A stretch of DNA of 64,000 nucleotides from Protaetiibacter mangrovi (GTDB lineage Bacteria; Actinomycetota; Actinomycetes; Actinomycetales; Microbacteriaceae), in the NCBI RefSeq assembly GCF_024752305.1, contig NZ_JANTHX010000005.1:89050-153049 (forward strand), read 5' to 3'. Below, in pieces: positions 37,945 through 46,245 of the stretch. Within the stretch, counting starts at the first letter, position 1. Every line of letters begins with the position of its first letter. The notes beneath the pieces were generated by a model. The model had not been told where the DNA came from and ran no database searches. It saw only the letters and a list, made by a program, of their open reading frames with translations. The position numbers and the translations under genes are program-made.

Positions 37945-38010
37945 CCGGCTCAGCGAGCCTACGCCCGTCGACCCCCGCTGTCCACTCGGAGCTCGGGCTA
38001 TCGTGGCGAC

Positions 38011-38373
38011 GTGAGTCCCCTGCTGCGCGCCGGAGTCGCCGTCCTGGCGGCCGTCGTCGGCGCCGTCGTCGGCCTCGTCACGACCTTCGCCCACGCGCAG
38101 TCGCCCCCGTGGGTGCTGCTCGGCGGTCTGCTGCTCGTCGCCGGCTACGTGCTCGGTGTCCGGCTCGCCTTCGAGGACCCGATCGCGACCTCCGCCGGCG
38201 CCCTCGGTGTGCTGGCGCCCGTCGGCTACGTGCTGCTGGTGCAGGGCGACGCCGTCGTCATCGGCGACGACGCGCTCGGCATCGCCTGGATCGTGGCGGT
38301 GCCCACCGTGATCGCGGCGGCCGCGGCCTGGCCGATCCGCCGACGTCCGGAACCCGGGTCCGAGTCGCCATAG
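38011..38373 (+). CDS. Small integral membrane protein
   Basis: 120 aa from the GTG at 38011. Four hydrophobic helices: AGVAVLAAVVGAVVGLVTTF, WVLLGGLLLVAGYVLGV, ALGVLAPVGYVLLVQG and GIAWIVAVPTVIAAAAAW, with a basic C-terminal tail (RRRPEPGSESP). A DUF6113-type or related actinobacterial membrane protein is possible, but I cannot be sure. It runs 9 nt ahead of fdxA on the same strand and often such a gene precedes ferredoxin in relatives. Function unknown. Confidence 0.75.
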   Translation: MSPLLRAGVAVLAAVVGAVVGLVTTFAHAQSPPWVLLGGLLLVAGYVLGVRLAFEDPIATSAGALGVLAPVGYVLLVQGDAVVIGDDALGIAWIVAVPTVIAAAAAWPIRRRPEPGSESP

Positions 38374-38382
38374 GATGAGACG

Positions 38383-38703
38383 GTGACCTACGTCATCGCC
38401 CTTCCCTGCGTGGATGTCAAAGACCGCGCCTGCATCGACGAGTGCCCCGTCGACTGCATCTACGAGGGCGACCGCATGCTCTACATCCACCCCGACGAGT
38501 GCGTCGACTGCGGTGCGTGCGAGCCGGTCTGCCCCGTCGAGGCCATCTACTACGAAGACGACCTGCCCGAGCAGTGGAGCGACTACTACAAGGCCAACGT
38601 CGAGTTCTTCGAGGAGATCGGATCGCCGGGCGGCGCCGCCAAGGTCGGTGTGATCGCGGGAGATCACCCGGTCGTCGCCGCGCTGCCGCCCCAGGGCGAG
38701 TGA
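38383..38703 (+). CDS. fdxA: Ferredoxin, seven-iron type
   Basis: 106 aa from the GTG at 38383. Cysteines are laid out as in mycobacterial/Streptomyces FdxA: CVDVKDRACIDECPVDC at residues 9-25, then CVDCGACEPVCPVEAIYYEDD. This pattern binds one [3Fe-4S] and one [4Fe-4S] cluster. It is a cytosolic electron carrier. The C-terminal tail is typical of the actinobacterial group. It immediately precedes the dapC gene (stop/start within a few bases), an arrangement conserved in actinobacteria. Confidence 0.95.
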   Translation: MTYVIALPCVDVKDRACIDECPVDCIYEGDRMLYIHPDECVDCGACEPVCPVEAIYYEDDLPEQWSDYYKANVEFFEEIGSPGGAAKVGVIAGDHPVVAALPPQGE

Positions 38704-38705
38704 CC

Positions 38706-39806
38706 GTGTCGTTGGAGTTGCCCGACTTCCCCTGGGATCTGCTGACGCCGTACGCCGACCAGGCGCGGGCGCATCCGGACGGCATCGTCGACCTGTCGGT
38801 CGGTTCCCCCGTCGACCCCACCCCGGCATCCGTGCGGGAGGCGCTCGCCGCCGCAACCGACGCGCACGCCTACCCCGCGACCTCCGGATCGCCCGCGCTG
38901 CGCGAGGCGATCGTCGAGTGGTACGCCCGGCGCCGCGGTGTGCCCGACCTCACCGTCGACAACGTCATCCCGACCATCGGGTCGAAGGAGTTCGTGGCGC
39001 TGCTGCCGAGGCTGCTCGGCCTCGGGCCGGGCGACGTCGTCGTGCAGCCCACCGCCGCGTACCCGAGCTACGCCGTGGGCGCGGCCGTCGTCGGCGCCAC
39101 CGTGCTCAGCTCCGACGAGCCCGAGGAGTGGCCGGCCGAGACCAGGCTCGTGTGGCTCAACAGCCCGGGCAACCCCGACGGGCGGGTGCACTCCCTCGCC
39201 TTCCTGCGTCGCGCGGTGGTGCGCGCCCGCGAGCTGGGCGCGGTCATCGCGAACGACGAATGCTACGCCGAGCTCGACTGGGGCTCCGACGAGCCCACCC
39301 CGAGCATCCTGCACCCGGAGGTGACGCAGGGCTCGCGGCGGCTGACGCTCTCGGTGTACTCGCTGTCGAAGCAGTCGAACCTCGCCGGCTACCGTGCGGC
39401 GTTCGTGGCCGGCTGCAGCGACCTCGTGGGCGAGCTGCTGACCGTGCGCAAGCACCTCGGGCTCATGCCCCCGGCACCCGTGCAGGCGGCGATGATCGCG
39501 GCCCTCGCCGACGAGGAGCACGTCGCGGCGCAGAAGGAGCTGTACCGGCGGCGGCGCGAGGCGCTCACCGCGGCGCTCACGGCATCCGGGTTCCGCATCG
39601 ACGGCTCCGAGGCCGGCCTCTACCTCTGGGCGAGCCGCGACGAGGACTGCTGGCAGACCGTCGCCGCGCTCGCGCGCATCGGCATCCTGGTGGCACCCGG
39701 ATCGTTCTACGGCGAGGCCGGGACGCGGCACGTGCGGGTGGCCCTCACTGCCACCGATGCGAGGGTAGACGAGGCCGTCTCCCGTCTGCGCGCCGGTAGG
39801 CTGTAA
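38706..39806 (+). CDS. dapC: Succinyldiaminopimelate transaminase DapC
   Basis: 366 aa, class I/II PLP aminotransferase. Start at the GTG at 38706; GTG 38700 (overlapping the fdxA stop) is also possible. The PLP lysine is in VYSLSKQSNLAGYRAAF, with SPGNPDGR and NDECYAELDWG upstream. Position after fdxA is characteristic of actinobacterial dapC, which transfers an amino group from glutamate to N-succinyl-2-amino-6-ketopimelate in lysine and peptidoglycan biosynthesis. dapD and dapE are nearby (42372, 43949). Confidence 0.93.
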   Translation: MSLELPDFPWDLLTPYADQARAHPDGIVDLSVGSPVDPTPASVREALAAATDAHAYPATSGSPALREAIVEWYARRRGVPDLTVDNVIPTIGSKEFVALLPRLLGLGPGDVVVQPTAAYPSYAVGAAVVGATVLSSDEPEEWPAETRLVWLNSPGNPDGRVHSLAFLRRAVVRARELGAVIANDECYAELDWGSDEPTPSILHPEVTQGSRRLTLSVYSLSKQSNLAGYRAAFVAGCSDLVGELLTVRKHLGLMPPAPVQAAMIAALADEEHVAAQKELYRRRREALTAALTASGFRIDGSEAGLYLWASRDEDCWQTVAALARIGILVAPGSFYGEAGTRHVRVALTATDARVDEAVSRLRAGRL

Positions 39807-39808
39807 CG

Positions 39809-41104
39809 GTGAGCGACACGACGAGCAACGAGAAGGTGACCCTGAACCTCGGCCATCGGGTCGCGGAGTTCCCGGTGCTGGCGGCCGTCGACGGCCGCGA
39901 CGCGGTCGACCTGTCGTCGTTCACCAAGCAGACCGGCTACAACACCTTCGACCCCGGGTTCGTGAACACCGCCGCCACGCGCAGCGCGATCACCTACATC
40001 GACGGCGACGAGGGCATCCTGCGCTACCGCGGCTACGCCATCGAGGATCTCGCCGCGAACTCCACCTACCTCGAGGTCGCCTGGCTGCTCATCTACGGCG
40101 AGCTGCCGACGCCGTCCGAGCTCGCCGAGTTCTCGGAGAAGGTGCGACGCCACACGCTGCTGCACGAGGACCTCAAGCGCTTCTTCTCGGCCCTGCCGCA
40201 CACCGCGCACCCCATGTCGGTGCTGTCGGCCGCGGTGTCGGCGCTGTCGACCTACTACGAGGACTCGCTCGACCCGAAGAACCCCGAGATGGTCGAGCTG
40301 TCGACCATCCGCCTGCTCGCGAAGCTGCCGGTCATCGCCGCCTACGCCCACAAGAAGTCGCTCGGCCAGGCGTTCCTCTACCCCGACAACTCGCTCGACT
40401 TCGTCGAGAACTTCCTGAAGCTCAACTTCGGCAACCTCGCCGAGGTGTACGACGTGAACCCCGTGCTCGTGAAGGCGCTCGACCGACTGCTCATCCTCCA
40501 CGAGGACCACGAGCAGAACGCCTCCACCTCGACGGTGCGGCTGGTGGGCTCGACGGAGGCGAACATGTTCGCGTCGATCTCCGCCGGCATCAACGCGCTG
40601 TACGGCCCGCTGCACGGCGGCGCCAACGAGGCGGTGCTGCGCATGCTCGCGCAGATCCAGGACTCGGGCGAGTCGGTGTCGAAGTTCGTCGAGCGGGTGA
40701 AGGCCAAGGAGGACGGCATCCGCCTCATGGGCTTCGGGCACCGCGTCTACAAGAACTACGACCCGCGCGCGAAACTCGTGAAGGAGTCGGCCGACGAGGT
40801 GCTCGCCGACCTCGGCGTGAAGGACCCGCTGCTCGACATCGCCAAGGAGCTCGAGCAGATCGCCCTCGACGACGAGTACTTCCAGGAGCGACGTCTCTAC
40901 CCGAACGTCGACTTCTACACCGGCGTGATCTACAAGGCGATGGGCTTCCCGACCCGCATGTTCACCGTGCTCTTCGCGATCGGCCGCCTGCCCGGCTGGA
41001 TCGCCCACTGGCGCGAGGCGAACGACGACGCCGGCACCAAGATCGGCCGTCCGCAGCAGCTCTACGTGGGCCCCGCCCCGCGCCCCTGGCCCGCCGGCCG
41101 CTGA
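39809..41104 (+). CDS. gltA: Citrate synthase
   Basis: 431 aa, type II citrate synthase that condenses acetyl-CoA with oxaloacetate. Catalytic His in GPLHGGANEAVL and GFGHRVYKNYDPRAK, and the Asp in YPNVDFYTGVIYKAMGFP are present. The N-terminal beta segment (NLGHRVAEFPVLAAVDGRDAVDLSSF) marks the hexameric bacterial form. Starts with the GTG at 39809, 2 nt after dapC. Followed by a 57-nt-loop hairpin at 41170 and the convergent DUF559 gene. Confidence 0.97.
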   Translation: MSDTTSNEKVTLNLGHRVAEFPVLAAVDGRDAVDLSSFTKQTGYNTFDPGFVNTAATRSAITYIDGDEGILRYRGYAIEDLAANSTYLEVAWLLIYGELPTPSELAEFSEKVRRHTLLHEDLKRFFSALPHTAHPMSVLSAAVSALSTYYEDSLDPKNPEMVELSTIRLLAKLPVIAAYAHKKSLGQAFLYPDNSLDFVENFLKLNFGNLAEVYDVNPVLVKALDRLLILHEDHEQNASTSTVRLVGSTEANMFASISAGINALYGPLHGGANEAVLRMLAQIQDSGESVSKFVERVKAKEDGIRLMGFGHRVYKNYDPRAKLVKESADEVLADLGVKDPLLDIAKELEQIALDDEYFQERRLYPNVDFYTGVIYKAMGFPTRMFTVLFAIGRLPGWIAHWREANDDAGTKIGRPQQLYVGPAPRPWPAGR

Positions 41105-41169
41105 CCCGCGCCGCCGCCGCGTCGCGGCGCCTCGGGCGTTGCTCCCCGTCCGCCCACCTCGTCGACTAC

Positions 41170-41256
41170 GTCGAAAATGCAGGAACTTCGAGCCGCCGCG
41201 TCCGGGAACGCTGGGTAGCAGTCGGCGACGCGCCCGACATCTCCTGCATTTTCCAC
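41170..41256. repeat. Hairpin repeat left of DUF559 gene
   Basis: GTCGAAAATGCAGGA (41170-41184) and TCCTGCATTTTCCAC (41242-41256) pair at 14 of 15 positions around a 57-nt loop, total 87 nt. The same arms occur, with the same loop length, at 42250-42336. The loop matches the inverse complement of the other loop at 31 of 57 positions, against 18 of 57 in direct orientation. Confidence 0.85.
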
Positions 41257-41293
41257 CCAGTGGTCGCGACTTCGGGATCCGTGAATCGGGGTA

Positions 41294-42160
41294 TCAGCGG
41301 TGGTCGCCGCGTGCGAGCGCGGCGCGGATCGACGCCATCACCTCATCCGGGCGGTACACGACCTGCACGTAGCTGAAGTGCAGCACCCGGTAGCCGCGGA
41401 TGCCGAGCCGGGCGTCGCGCGCACGGTCCCGTTCGAACGCGCCGGAGTTGTCGTGGTGCTCCTTCCCGTCGACTTCGATGACGAGGCGACCGAGAAGGAA
41501 GTCGACACGCATGTCGTCGATCCACTGCTGGGTGAGAAACGGGATGCCTGCTCGGATGAGATGCCACCGCAGAACGGATTCCGGGAAGGACTCCGACCGG
41601 GGGTCGACAAAGGAGAGGATCTCGCCTCGCTCACCCGGAAGGCGACGGCGCAGCTCACGGAGGTCCGATCGGTTCAGGACCCGACTCGAGAGCCCGCTGT
41701 CGAGCGCACCGAGCACCCACTGCGGCGCGTGGCACGCGGCGAGGTCGACGATGCATTCGATCGGCGTCGCGCGGAATCGATCGTGTGCTTCGGCATCCCT
41801 CCAATGGAGGACGACCCGATCGTCGGGTTCGTCGGAGAGCCGGATGCGCCGATCATCCGGGCGCCTCATTCGCGCATCGTGCGGTGGCACGATCACGTGG
41901 AGGTGGTCGTCGGGCGGCGACCACATTCCGAAGCTCGATACCGCGTTCACGCAGGTGAGTAGGCCCCCCACCCTCCAGGCAGCAGCGAGGAGCCCGTCGA
42001 TCTCGTTGAGTGCATACCATCCGTTGCGAATTCTCTGCACCCATCGCTGTCGGACGGCGTAGTCGAGTGCACGGTAGGTCCACCCCATCTTCAGCAGGGC
42101 GTGCGCTGGGGCGAGGCCGCCGAGGCTTCGGAGATCTGCGGTCAGGCTCATCCGCAGCAT
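41294..42160 (-). CDS. DUF559 PD-(D/E)XK protein with AbiEi-like N-terminus
   Basis: 288 aa from the ATG at 42160, preceded by GAGGTGG. The N-terminus (SLTADLRSLGGLAPAHALLKMG, then RIRNGWYAL) resembles the winged-helix AbiEi antitoxin fold. The C-terminus is a DUF559 domain, related to Vsr and other very-short-patch or restriction-type nucleases: E of FPESVLRWHL, then D of RVDFLLGRLVIEVDGKEHH with D...E-x-D-x-K, and the closing GYRVLHFSYVQVVYRP. All catalytic positions are present. GC falls to 57-58% in sampled stretches against about 70% around it. Flanked by inverted hairpin repeats. No AbiEii toxin partner is adjacent. Confidence 0.85.
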   Translation of the reverse strand: MLRMSLTADLRSLGGLAPAHALLKMGWTYRALDYAVRQRWVQRIRNGWYALNEIDGLLAAAWRVGGLLTCVNAVSSFGMWSPPDDHLHVIVPPHDARMRRPDDRRIRLSDEPDDRVVLHWRDAEAHDRFRATPIECIVDLAACHAPQWVLGALDSGLSSRVLNRSDLRELRRRLPGERGEILSFVDPRSESFPESVLRWHLIRAGIPFLTQQWIDDMRVDFLLGRLVIEVDGKEHHDNSGAFERDRARDARLGIRGYRVLHFSYVQVVYRPDEVMASIRAALARGDHR

Positions 42161-42249
42161 GCTGACCACCTCGGACCGCATCCCGTCGCATGGGTCGGGT
42201 ATCGGCGCGCAACATCAGAGTCGACCGCCCGTGCAGGAGAGGAGGTGAG

Positions 42250-42336
42250 GTCGAAAATGCAGGAGAATCCGGGCGTGTCCCCTGTTCAATCCCTGTGAAA
42301 CCAGGGTCGGCAGCTTTGGGTTCCTGCATTTTCGAC
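42250..42336. repeat. Hairpin repeat right of DUF559 gene
   Basis: GTCGAAAATGCAGGA (42250-42264) and TCCTGCATTTTCGAC (42322-42336) are perfect inverted repeats around a 57-nt loop, total 87 nt; one flanking G/C pair extends it. Arms and loop length equal those of 41170-41256, and the loops are similar when one is inverted. It lies between the DUF559 start and the dapD stop and could also terminate dapD. Confidence 0.85.
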
Positions 42337-42371
42337 CCGACTGCAGGGTGGGGACGACGCGGCGGGTACGG

Positions 42372-43295
42372 CTAGGCGTGCAGTTGGGCGTTGAGCTCGA
42401 CGCCGTGGCCGGCGCGGGGGAGCGCCTCGACGGCCCCGGAGAGGGAGTTGCGGCGGAACAGGATGCCGGGCACGCCCGAGAGCTCCACGGCCTTCACCGT
42501 GCGGGGGCCCGCCGGCAGCAGGTAGGTGATCTTGGTGCCGGCGGTCACGTAGAGGCCGGCCTCGACGACCGAGTCGTCGCCGATCGAGATGCCGATGCCG
42601 GAGTTCGCCCCGAGCAGCGCGCGCTCGCCGATGACGACGCGCTGGGTGCCGCCGCCCGAGAGGGTGCCCATGATCGACGCGCCGCCGCCCACATCCGAGC
42701 CGTCGCCCACGACGACGCCCTGCGAGATGCGGCCCTCGACCATCGAGGCGCCGAGGGTGCCGGCGTTGTAGTTCACGAAGCCCTCGTGCATCACGGTCGT
42801 GCCGGGGGAGAGGTGCGCGCCGAGCCGCACGCGCGCCGCATCCGCGATGCGCACGCGCTCGGGCACCACGTAGTCGAGCAGCCGGGGGAACTTGTCGACC
42901 CCGTGCACCGACACCCCCGCCCGCTGCAGGCGCCCGCGGCCGCTCTGCAGCACCGACGGATGCGCGGGGCCGGCGGTCGTCCACGCCACGATCGGCAGGT
43001 GGGCGAAGACGCCGTCGAGGTTGACCTCGTTGGGCTTCACCAGCAGGTGCGACAGCAGGTGCAGCCGCAGGTAGGCGTCGGGGGTGGACGCGGGCGGGGC
43101 GTCGGTGTCGATCTCGACGAGGACCGCCGCCGTGGTCACCTGCCGCACCTCGTCGTCTCCCACCCCGTCGCCCACCTCGGCGGGTGCGACGGCATCCGCG
43201 GGGGCCGCTCCCAGGGCGGGTGCGGGGAACCAGGTGTCGAGCACGGTGCCGTCGGCGGCGGTCGTGGCCAGTCCGTGGCCCCAGGCGGTCGTCAT
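42372..43295 (-). CDS. dapD: Tetrahydrodipicolinate N-succinyltransferase DapD
   Basis: 307 aa. The left-handed beta-helix hexapeptide repeats run through [35 protein letters not shown] and [36 protein letters not shown]. This is the longer actinobacterial form rather than the E. coli one. It succinylates tetrahydrodipicolinate, the committing step in the succinylase branch of lysine/mDAP biosynthesis. It is divergent from the DUF218 gene and dapE. Start ATG 43295. Confidence 0.93.
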
Positions 43296-43354
43296 GACTC
43301 CAGGCTATCGGCCCGACCGCGGCGCGATCCGCGGGCCGGTCGTACGATCGCCTG

Positions 43355-43939
43355 GTGCGCAGGCTCGCGATCGCGGTCGCCGCGGTTCTCGCCGCGGTGC
43401 TGATGTGGGGCGAGCTCGTGCACCTGCGGGCCTCCACGAGGCGGCTGGGCGGCGCCGCGGGGGCCGACGGCCCCCAGGTCGTCGTCGGACTCGGCTACGG
43501 CAACCGCGGAACGCGCGCGAACCTCGTCAACCGGCAGCGGGTGCGGGCGGCCGTCCGCACCTTCCGCGGTGCGCCCGGAGACCGACTCGTGTTCAGCGGG
43601 GGCCCCGTGCACAGCCCGGTGCCCGAGGCCGAGCTGATGGCGCACTACGCACGCGAGGAGCTGGGCGTGCGGGGCGAGATCCTCGTCGAGACGCGCAGCC
43701 GCAACACCCGCGAGAACGTGCGCAACGTCGTGCCGCTGCTCGAGGGCGCCGCCCGCATCGCCCTCGTGTCGAATCCGCTGCACGGCGAGTACGCCCGCGC
43801 GGAGCTGCGGCGCATCCGCCCCGACCTGGCCGAGCGCCTGGTGCGGGCCGACGACTACCGCGTCGGCGAGCAGCTGCTGCTGAAGCCCGTGATGGCGGTG
43901 ATCGGCCTCCGGGCGCTGCGCGGGCTGCCCCGCCCGTAG
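43355..43939 (+). CDS. DUF218/YdcF-like protein
   Basis: 194 aa from the GTG at 43355. An N-terminal membrane helix (LAIAVAAVLAAVLMWGELV) precedes a Rossmann-like domain with VVVGLGYGNRG, VFSGGPVHSP, ETRSRNTRENVRNVVPLL and LVSNPLHGEYARAELRR, which match the DUF218 family (YdcF, SanA). Roles in envelope polymer metabolism or vancomycin resistance have been proposed for SanA, but the substrate is unknown. It sits 9 nt before dapE and may be cotranscribed. Confidence 0.85.
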   Translation: MRRLAIAVAAVLAAVLMWGELVHLRASTRRLGGAAGADGPQVVVGLGYGNRGTRANLVNRQRVRAAVRTFRGAPGDRLVFSGGPVHSPVPEAELMAHYAREELGVRGEILVETRSRNTRENVRNVVPLLEGAARIALVSNPLHGEYARAELRRIRPDLAERLVRADDYRVGEQLLLKPVMAVIGLRALRGLPRP

Positions 43940-43948
43940 GCTGGGTTC

Positions 43949-45025
43949 GTGCCCGCGCTCGACCTCACCGCCTCCACGACCGAGCTCACCCGGCAGCTCG
44001 TCGACGTCTTCTCGGTGTCGGGGGAGGAGGCGGCGCTCGCCGACGCGATCGAGGCGGTGCTGCGCGCCCAGCCGCACCTCGAGGTGATCCGCGACGGGGA
44101 CGCCGTGGTCGCCCGCACGCGGCTCGGCCGTGCCCAGCGGGTGGTCATCGCGGGCCACATCGACACCGTGCCGGTGAACGGCAACCTCCCCGCGCGCCTC
44201 GACGACGGTGGCGCGACCCTCTGGGGTCGCGGCACGGTCGACATGAAGGGCGGCTGCGCGGTCATGCTGGCGCTCGCGGTGGAGCTCGCCGCGCCTGCCG
44301 TCGACGTCACCTGGGTCTGGTACGACAACGAGGAGGTCGACTCCGCCCGGAACGGACTGGGACGCATCGCCCGCGAGCGGCCGGAGCTGCTCGAGGCGGA
44401 CTTCGCGATCCTCGGCGAGCCCTCGAACGGCGAGATCGAGGGCGGCTGCAACGGCACGATCCGCGTCGACGTCACCACCCGCGGCCGCCGGGCGCATTCG
44501 GCGCGCGCTTGGATGGGCGAGAACGCCATCCACGCTGCGGCGCCGGTGCTGGAGCGGTTGGCCGCGTACGAGGCGCAGGAGGTGGAGGTCGACGGCCTCG
44601 TCTACCGTGAGAGCCTCTCGGCGGTCCGCATCTCGGGCGGGGTGGCGGGCAACGTCATCCCCGACGAGTGCACGGTGCACGTGAACTACCGCTTCGCGCC
44701 GAGCCGCAGCGGCGCCGAGGCCCTCGCCCACCTCGAGCAGCTGTTCGCGGGGCTGCCGGTCGAGATCGTCGTCGCCGACCTCGCCGAGGGCGCACGCCCC
44801 GGGCTCGACGCGCCCCTCGCGCAGCAGTTCGTGGCGGCCGTCGGGGGCGAGGCGCGCCCCAAATACGGCTGGACGGATGTGGCCCGCTTCAGCGCCCTCG
44901 GCATCCCGGCCGTCAACTACGGTCCGGGTGACCCGAGCCTCGCGCACGCTGACGACGAGCGGGTTCCGGTGGCTCAGATCGAGCGGGTCGAGGCGGGCCT
45001 GCGCCGATGGCTGACCGCCGGCTGA
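43949..45025 (+). CDS. dapE: Succinyl-diaminopimelate desuccinylase DapE
   Basis: 358 aa from the GTG at 43949, M20 metallopeptidase. Metal ligands are in AGHIDTVPV (His), [14 protein letters not shown] (Asp), [13 protein letters not shown] (Glu-Glu) and [16 protein letters not shown] (Glu); the dimerisation lid contains [17 protein letters not shown]. It removes succinate from N-succinyl-LL-diaminopimelate after DapD and DapC have acted, completing the branch. The next gene overlaps it by 19 nt. Confidence 0.93.
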
Positions 45026-46245
45026 TCACCCCGGCGCTCGTGCGCTGGCGGCTCACGCCGTGGTGGGGCCGGGTGCTCGTCGTCTATGCGCTCAGCCGCG
45101 TCGTCACGACGGTCGTCCTGCTGTGCTTCGCGGTCGTGCAGGCGCACGAGACCGGCACCACCGTGCCGGACTACTTCACCCTCGCCGCCAACTGGGACGG
45201 CCAGTGGTACTGGATCATCGCGCTGAACGGCTACCCGGCCGAGCTGCCGAAGGATGACGCGGGGCACGTCACCGAGAACGCCTGGGCGTTCCTGCCGGTG
45301 TATCCGCTGCTGCTGGGCGTGTTCGCCCGGGCCGGGTTCGGCTTCCCGGTGATCGCCGTCCTGTTCTCGCTCGCGGCGGGGGCGGGCGCCGCACTGCTGT
45401 TCGAGCGGCTGCTGCGCGGCGCGGGCCTCGGGGCGGGACAGGCGCTCACGGGCGTCGTCCTGCTCTGCACGGCGCCCCTGTCGGTGATGTTCCAGGTGTC
45501 CTACGCCGAGGCGTCGGGCCTCGCGCTGCTGTTCCTCGCCCTGCTGCTCGTGCAGCGTCGCCGTTTCGGCGTGCTGCTGCCCGTCGTGGTCGTGATGTCG
45601 CTGACCCGACCGAGCGGCCTCGCGTTCGCGTTGTTCCTGCTGCTCTACCTCGTGGCGCGGCTGGTGCGGTGGCGCCGCGACGCCGAGGCGCATCCGCTGC
45701 CCCGGCGGGAGGCGCTCGCCATCTGCGTCGCCGGGATCGTGAGCGTCGCGGCGGGCCTGCTGTGGTCGGCGATCGCGTGGGCGGTGACCGGTTCGGTGTC
45801 GGCGTACACGGATACCGAGCTCGCCTGGCGCGCCGGGTACCTCGGCTACGGGCATCTCGTGCCCTTCGCGGCATGGTTCGACGGGATCGCCTTCTGGCTG
45901 CGCTTCGCCGGTGTTCCGGAGACGGCATCCGCGGGCGCTGCGGTGGCGGTCGTGGGGGCGTCGCTCGTGCTGTTCGCGGGGTTCGTCCTCAGCCCGTGGG
46001 CGCGGCGGCTCGGGCTCGAGGTGCGCCTGTGGCTCGTGGGCTACCTCGTCTACCTCATGGCGGTGTTCTTCCCGCAGTCGAGCACCTGGCGGCTGCTGCT
46101 GCCGCTCTCGCCCGCGCTCGGCGCCTTCGCGGTGCCGCGGTCGCGCCTGTGGCGGGTGTCGCTCGTCGTGCTCGGGGTGCTCGGGCAGCTGGTGTGGGTG
46201 TACTTCTGCTGGATCCGCCTGCCCGGCGACTGGTCGCCGCCGTAG
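45007..46245 (+). CDS. GT-C-type glycosyltransferase (PIG-V-like)
   Basis: 412 aa with about ten membrane helices. The first exterior loop carries [21 protein letters not shown], the W-D-x-x-W-Y motif of PIG-V/DolP-mannose-dependent GT-C enzymes, followed by [10 protein letters not shown]. It is likely a membrane mannosyl- or glucosyltransferase that uses a polyprenyl-linked sugar to build envelope glycans. The acceptor is unknown. The start overlaps dapE by 19 nt, so translation is coupled, though a functional link with lysine biosynthesis is not obvious. Confidence 0.85.

Follow-up and report, generated by a model that had tools for sequence, protein, structure and literature searches.

DUF559 genes of several subfamilies in the Microbacteriaceae often sit between two hairpins that carry an arm sequence of their own, and hairpins of this kind are also dispersed through the genomes of one genus in this family. 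These findings suggest a previously undescribed partnership between an enzyme and a repeat, which resembles that of RAYTs and REPINs but employs an unrelated enzyme. We lean, with modest confidence, towards the view that the DUF559 gene is a dedicated and vertically inherited partner of the dispersed hairpin population, and that the pair works in the manner of REPINs and RAYTs with a nuclease of the Vsr/homing-endonuclease type. DUF559, a domain of unknown function, would thereby gain a candidate natural DNA partner, and the arm word together with the spacing of the arms would represent a testable specificity code for it.

The window, i.e. the whole stretch of 64,000 nucleotides of Protaetiibacter mangrovi DNA that was analysed, encodes on the minus strand a 295-residue protein with a DUF559 (Vsr-like) nuclease domain (PF04480; positions 41294..42181), which has orthologues at the same locus in relatives. 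The true start of this gene may be at 42151, since conservation among the homologues starts near residue 11. The first hairpin, to which no strand is assigned, is located at 41170..41256 (arms 41170-41184 and 41242-41256), and the second, likewise without strand, lies on the upstream side of the gene at 42250..42336 (arms 42250-42264 and 42322-42336, which match exactly). Each of them is 87 nt long with a loop of 57 nt. The first-pass annotation of this DNA had described just such a gene flanked by a pair of 87-nt hairpins whose loops measure 57 nt, and the coordinates, the shuffling of the sequence and a PF04480 score of 40.5 bits (cut-off 20.6) all bear this out. It had also stated that the two hairpins share the same 15-nt arms. 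Three of the four arms are indeed exactly GTCGAAAATGCAGGA, but the fourth (41242-41256) has one mismatch, because of which the uninterrupted stem of the first hairpin is 12 bp. With up to three mismatches allowed, GTCGAAAATGCAGGA is found at four sites in the 64 kb, every one of them at the DUF559 locus, as compared to a mean of 0.52 sites in 100 dinucleotide shuffles, none of which reached four. Folding as single-stranded DNA gave z-values of -2.26 and -4.78 for the two hairpins relative to shuffles. The Pfam domains of the flanking genes (4Fe-4S ferredoxin, class I/II aminotransferase, citrate synthase, tetrahydrodipicolinate succinyltransferase and M20 peptidase) agree with the place beside gltA and dapD, within an fdxA-dapC...dapD-dapE stretch, that had been assigned to the unit; the names fdxA, dapC, gltA, dapD and dapE are derived from these domains and from the earlier annotation.

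Relatives of the window protein were present in 8 of the 9 genus genomes (G000, the genome of the window, to G008). In six of these (G000-G005) a DUF559 orthologue is located next to gltA, with identities to the window protein of 77% in G001, 66% in G005, 63% in G003 and 62% in both G002 and G004. G007 and G008 have relatives at other sites, and a different sequence follows gltA in these genomes. No relative of the window protein was detected in G006 at an E-value of 0.001, and the gltA-dapD gap of this genome is gene-free and measures 42 bp; yet G006 has 14 hairpins. The gene was therefore probably lost there, and G006 represents a natural case of hairpins without a detected nuclease. The gltA neighbourhood is also common to the loci L103, L104, L109, L121, L123 and L133 of other genera.

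At a threshold of 1e-20, a profile comprising eight members (A1) found matches in 105 of the 150 family genomes, which fall into 63 of 85 genera. We defined a matched pair as one hairpin on each side of the gene with a common arm word of a given length. Among the first 30 loci, 18 showed a matched pair, as opposed to none of the 30 at any of four shifted positions and 54 of 870 when the flanks were exchanged between loci. A larger test covered 68 loci, namely 70 taken from among the matches listed, mostly from the top rows, minus L141 and L151, which lie at contig ends. For arm words of 8, 9, 10, 11 and 12 nt, matched pairs were observed at 44, 37, 34, 30 and 25 of the 68 loci, respectively. 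The corresponding counts were 2, 0, 0, 0 and 0 at a shift of 450, 0 at all of these word lengths at a shift of 1000, and 30, 15, 9, 2 and 1 in 400 combinations of swapped flanks, some of which involve arms that are truly shared between loci. Once the genus was added and duplicates were taken out, 46 of 86 loci had a matched pair at 10 nt, this set omitting L180, L181, L182, L184 and the loci outside the family. The pairing is not universal: 34 of the 68 loci were without a matched pair at 10 nt, including the gltA-locus orthologues L121 and L123, and the DUF559 relatives of the genus that are without a pair include L056, L057, L060, L063, L065, L066 and L067. The arm words are diverse (TTGTGCAGGA, AATCAAGGA, CAACTCAGGA, AATTCAGGA, AAAACAGGA and others), and 35 of 43 contain CAGG, AAGG or a complement thereof, against a mean of 8.1 and a maximum of 17 after shuffling of the letters.

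The dispersed hairpins were examined in the nine congeners. The exact arm of the window is present eight times in G000. A looser pattern for the genus (WWRTGCAGGA, 45-75 nt and the complement, nested pairs being counted twice) retrieved 24 hairpins from G000 and 48, 23, 36, 43, 4, 14, 8 and 13 from G001 to G008, respectively. All nine congeners thus have dispersed hairpins, between 4 and 48 per genome, and the reversed pattern gave 0 in each. In G000, 22 of the 24 hairpins are located away from the DUF559 gene of the window. The 37 AAATGCAGGA hairpins collected from G001 (Homoserinibacter gongjuensis NBRC 108755, whose locus L045 is identical to L180) have loops of 57 nt in 33 cases, 56 nt in 3 and 55 nt in 1, and the 95 distinct hairpins in the fetched loci have loops of 57, 56 and 55 nt in 50, 40 and 5 cases, with a search range of 50-62 nt. 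The mean pairwise identity of the 57-nt loops of G001 (n=30) was 48%, versus 33% upon shuffling. Spacing and arms are constrained, and the constraint on the loop sequence is far weaker; it should be noted that the arms belonged to the search pattern and that their conservation is therefore partly due to the selection of hits. The idea that the loop is a mere extension of the stem was rejected, as symmetric pairing did not exceed the column expectation in either the 56-nt loops (n=40) or the 57-nt loops (n=50). With respect to the outer arms, GTCGA was found on both sides in 35 of the 37 hairpins of G001 and on at least one side in 6 of the 24 hairpins of G000, the remaining 18 of which are CAG-like, as are all 12 sampled from the 14 hairpins of G006. 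The outer-arm counts for G002 and G004 are biased because many loci in these genomes were fetched via the GTCGA arm.

Profile searches of the window protein against solved structures returned 3hrl (E=8.7e-6) and the homing endonuclease I-Bth0305I (3r3p; 2.9e-4), and Foldseek with the AlphaFold model returned 3r3p (6.2e-4), 3hrl (0.01) and Vsr (0.018), of which 3r3p alone is below 0.001. The solved fold nearest to the modelled one is that of I-Bth0305I. The model has a mean pLDDT of 58.9; it is usable for residues 140-290 or thereabouts only, and falls below 50 over residues 48-139. Pfam recognised DUF559 and MTES_1575 only. In an alignment of 107 proteins (of 112 loci, 106 yielded an ORF that fits the profile and six were dropped, and several duplicates stand under two locus identifiers), E201 and D227 are retained in all 107, E236 and D252 in 106, and D238 and H243 in 105. 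Residues of a catalytic type are thus kept in 105-107 of the 107 proteins. EDxHD is the name of a family of homing endonucleases according to the abstract of PMC6083498, and the window protein may belong to it. PADLOC gave weak hits only, to a homing endonuclease (E=0.0002) and to AbiEi (E=0.0069), and a role as a defence system was therefore rejected. The first-pass annotation had called the N-terminus AbiEi-like. There may be such a similarity, but it would be a faint one, with an E-value of 1.0 in Foldseek besides the PADLOC hit and a model that is unreliable in this part; moreover, unlike in the AbiEi antitoxin, the region is fused here to a nuclease domain. The C-terminal domain resembles Vsr and I-Bth0305I in sequence, in fold and in its conserved acidic and histidine residues. 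It differs from them in that the protein has an additional N-terminal domain and cognate hairpins and is encoded outside any intron. A DUF559 domain is also carried by VsrA of Caulobacter, for which a role in mismatch repair is predicted (PMC12907096).

The closest parallel to the whole arrangement is the REPIN-RAYT system. Both comprise inverted doublets of a conserved word, which are dispersed, keep a characteristic distance and enclose a less conserved spacer; this distance is 72 bp here, and 71 bp, counted from first base to first base, in the GI REPs (PMC3116915). In both cases the repeats flank a cognate gene, though here not universally: at 10 nt they do so at 34 of the 68 loci, and at none in the shifted controls. 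PMC8049555 and PMC3733652 describe the RAYT gene as vertically inherited, dedicated and near the repeats, and the DUF559 gene beside its hairpins appears to be likewise dedicated and vertically inherited. The differences concern the enzyme, which is an HUH Y1 transposase in RAYTs and a DUF559/Vsr-like nuclease here, the tag, which is GTAG there and a frequent [C/A]AGG at the loop side here, and the host, the present hairpins having been found in actinobacteria. The earlier comparison with RAYT proteins hence holds as an analogy of layout, whereas by sequence and fold the enzyme is unrelated, and we set the system apart from REPIN-RAYT because the test for the defining enzyme fails, even though the layout is much alike. 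In the open-access papers searched, a scope outside which subscription papers and preprints fall, no link between DUF559 and repeats was found and an arm word did not occur, and a broader search yielded nothing relevant among the matches listed, beyond known REPIN papers.

How such a partnership could operate can be proposed tentatively, and we hold the following account to be possible, if somewhat short of probable. It would be an independently evolved counterpart of REPIN-RAYT, in which an enzyme of the Vsr/homing-endonuclease type recognises the two arms and, through cutting followed by copying during repair, spreads them. The N-terminal part of the protein would read the arm, i.e. the frequent [C/A]AGG core together with a word specific to the lineage; two nuclease subunits would each hold one arm, with the distance between them fixed; the nuclease would then nick or cut, and repair synthesis by the host would occasionally copy the hairpin to another site. 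Breaking and copying is plausible in view of the kinship of the nuclease to a homing endonuclease. Specificity, word and spacing would co-evolve and thereby leave several hairpin populations per genome, and the upstream hairpin copy may in addition regulate the DUF559 gene. If the nuclease does spread the hairpins, a second and unrelated class of enzymes would lie behind REPIN-like repeats, which would bear on the question why bacteria retain such repeat populations.

Traces that could stem from copying were found in G001. Two hairpins of this genome that are 2 kb apart and inverted have loops that are 88% identical; on the left flank 23 of 25 bases are common to them, and on the right flank three bases only. 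This is what a one-sided copy made by repair synthesis or template switching might look like, and copying of hairpins driven by the enzyme is a possible origin. A second close pair in G001 is a tandem duplication. When roughly 400 kb from each of G001, G002 and G003, plus the window, were compared by synteny, hairpins at G001:1895096 and G001:2068873 proved absent at the corresponding sites of G002, and one at G002:2106890 at that of G001. Many further syntenic sites were ambiguous as to the presence of a hairpin, and the intergenic DNA is too diverged between the species for insertion junctions to be read exactly or target duplications to be delimited. The remaining G001 loops that were compared are at most 70% alike, and copying must therefore be rare or old.

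This paucity of recent copying would also fit a domesticated function, in which the nuclease, or its N-terminal part, would bind the dispersed hairpins for the sake of regulation, repair or chromosome maintenance, and the hairpins would benefit the host and not be spread by the nuclease. We regard this as rather unlikely, although the gene has been inherited vertically, at a locus that stays the same, under purifying selection (Ka/Ks between 0.15 and 0.25 for six pairs, Ks being saturated in one) and arms and spacing are conserved while the loops drift. The copy number, which varies from 4 to 48 between congeners, the retention of hairpins without the gene in G006 and the existence of the one-sided copy are at odds with it.

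Arm type and arm spacing differ jointly between nuclease lineages at the gltA locus. All four hairpins at this locus in G000 and G001 are of the type GTCGA-AAATGCAGGA with a loop of 57 nt (one outer arm being imperfect), whereas all 12 in G002-G005 are of the type CAG-AAATGCAGGA with a loop of 56 nt (two outer arms being imperfect, and one inner-arm mismatch having been permitted in the search). Similarly, L125 and L142, from two species, differ by the same letter in all four arms of their two hairpins, which read GGCGGAG in one species but GGAGGAG in the other; L142 failed the matched-pair test of the 68 loci. Hairpins of the TTGTGCAGGA type occur in the three genomes that have the respective nuclease subtype (G001, G007 and G008), and in none of the four fully listed genomes without it (G000, G002, G005 and G006), the hairpins of G003 and G004 being incompletely listed and hence left outside this count. 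G008 additionally has two hairpins of an AAA type. AATCAAGGA hairpins number 22 in G000 and 12 in G003, both of which have the respective subtype, and 6 in G001, for which no cognate gene was found; the other six genomes have none. A simple match of arm and enzyme is broken in G000, where the nuclease is GTCGA-armed but 18 of the 24 hairpins are CAG-like. The mean length of the shared arm word was 4.7, 4.6 and 5.9 for proteins with identities of below 30%, 30-40% and 40-50%, respectively, and rose to 8.0 for the 5 pairs at 50-60% and to 10.9 for the 14 pairs with more than 60%. A Mantel test of arm similarity against protein identity gave an r of 0.12, with 258 of 5000 permutations as high. 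The proposal that arms follow protein distance throughout was thus rejected; the relation is weak overall and clear for close pairs only.

These data also bear on the view that another enzyme spreads the hairpins and that DUF559 genes are flanked by them since the hairpins regulate or terminate these genes. That DUF559 is a putative nuclease here, as judged from sequence and model, leaves some room for this view. It is nonetheless improbable, given that the arm type varies with the DUF559 lineage at one and the same locus, and that matched pairs of many arm words all surround DUF559 genes.

In a search of 246 genomes of the phylum at 1e-15, 12 matched, two of them within the family. Of 14 loci outside the family, counted without an accompanying null, three (L266, L267 and L268) have a matched word of at least 9 nt, three have one of 8 nt, and eight have none. 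The genome of L267 (G305) contains 23 dispersed hairpins with the arm GAGCAGACGCAAAA. This arm has no exact occurrence in G193, the genome of L268, occurs once forward and twice in reverse in G229, which has no DUF559 match, and is absent from four others. At L267 the DUF559 relative lies between short hairpins with the arm GAGCAGACG.AAAAG, and many of the 23 hairpins have palindromic interiors. It is suggestive only, but the pairing of DUF559 with hairpins may extend past the family.

The hairpins next to L267 and L268 are terminator-like in appearance, and the first hairpin of the window is bracketed by convergent genes, as would be expected if the hairpins simply terminated transcription or belonged to a known RNA, their pairing with DUF559 being incidental. 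Long common arm sequences and narrow loop lengths speak against this, as do the lack of any Rfam match up to E=1 in positions 38000-46000 and the fact that, at shifted positions, none of the 68 loci had a matched pair of at least 9 nt, and we consider it very improbable.

The first-pass annotation had regarded the unit of about 1.17 kb as a self-contained mobile cassette, and in favour of this can be cited the exact flanking of the gene by the hairpins and the gene-free gltA-dapD site of G006, an empty site in a relative of the kind that it had proposed to look for. We give this idea hardly any credence, since the gene and its hairpins were not found at differing sites in relatives but, in six genomes, at one and the same place beside gltA, the hairpin alone is the dispersed unit and mostly occurs without the gene, and relatives of the window protein are almost absent from plasmid (3 of 72,556) and phage (1 of 50,697) records. 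It had been proposed to see whether hairpins flank DUF559 genes beyond chance, and at 10 nt they do so at 34 of 68 loci, whereas neither shifted control gave a single case. Hairpins throughout the genome with no association with DUF559 genes had been named as evidence to the contrary: the hairpins are indeed found throughout the genome, but the supposed lack of association is contradicted.

Several minor observations were made along the way. A DUF559 relative in G001 (C1:609516-610294) is present in two adjacent pieces in different frames (L061 and L064), which probably represent a decayed gene; L061 is without a matched hairpin pair. The loci L183 and L184 of two related species, which are about 92% alike over 7.9 kb, have identical inner arms and similar loop lengths, and their upstream loop has strongly diverged; in the upstream hairpin, CCAAATGAAGG is retained as the arm in spite of the strong divergence of the loop and of the intergenic DNA beside it. 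Hypermutation of the loop is unproven by this comparison itself, as the neighbouring intergenic DNA diverges likewise. A hairpin with a 57-nt loop that is similar and, by eye, coding-looking is found in four congeners (G000 C16:517020, G001 C1:2998478, G002 C1:3061492 and G006 C1:1763907), and its 87 nt would preserve a reading frame. Lastly, a hairpin common to G000 (C4:169086), G001 (C1:264358) and G002 (C1:381796) has an ATG in its arm, and a reading frame could, as judged by eye, start there and run through the loop.
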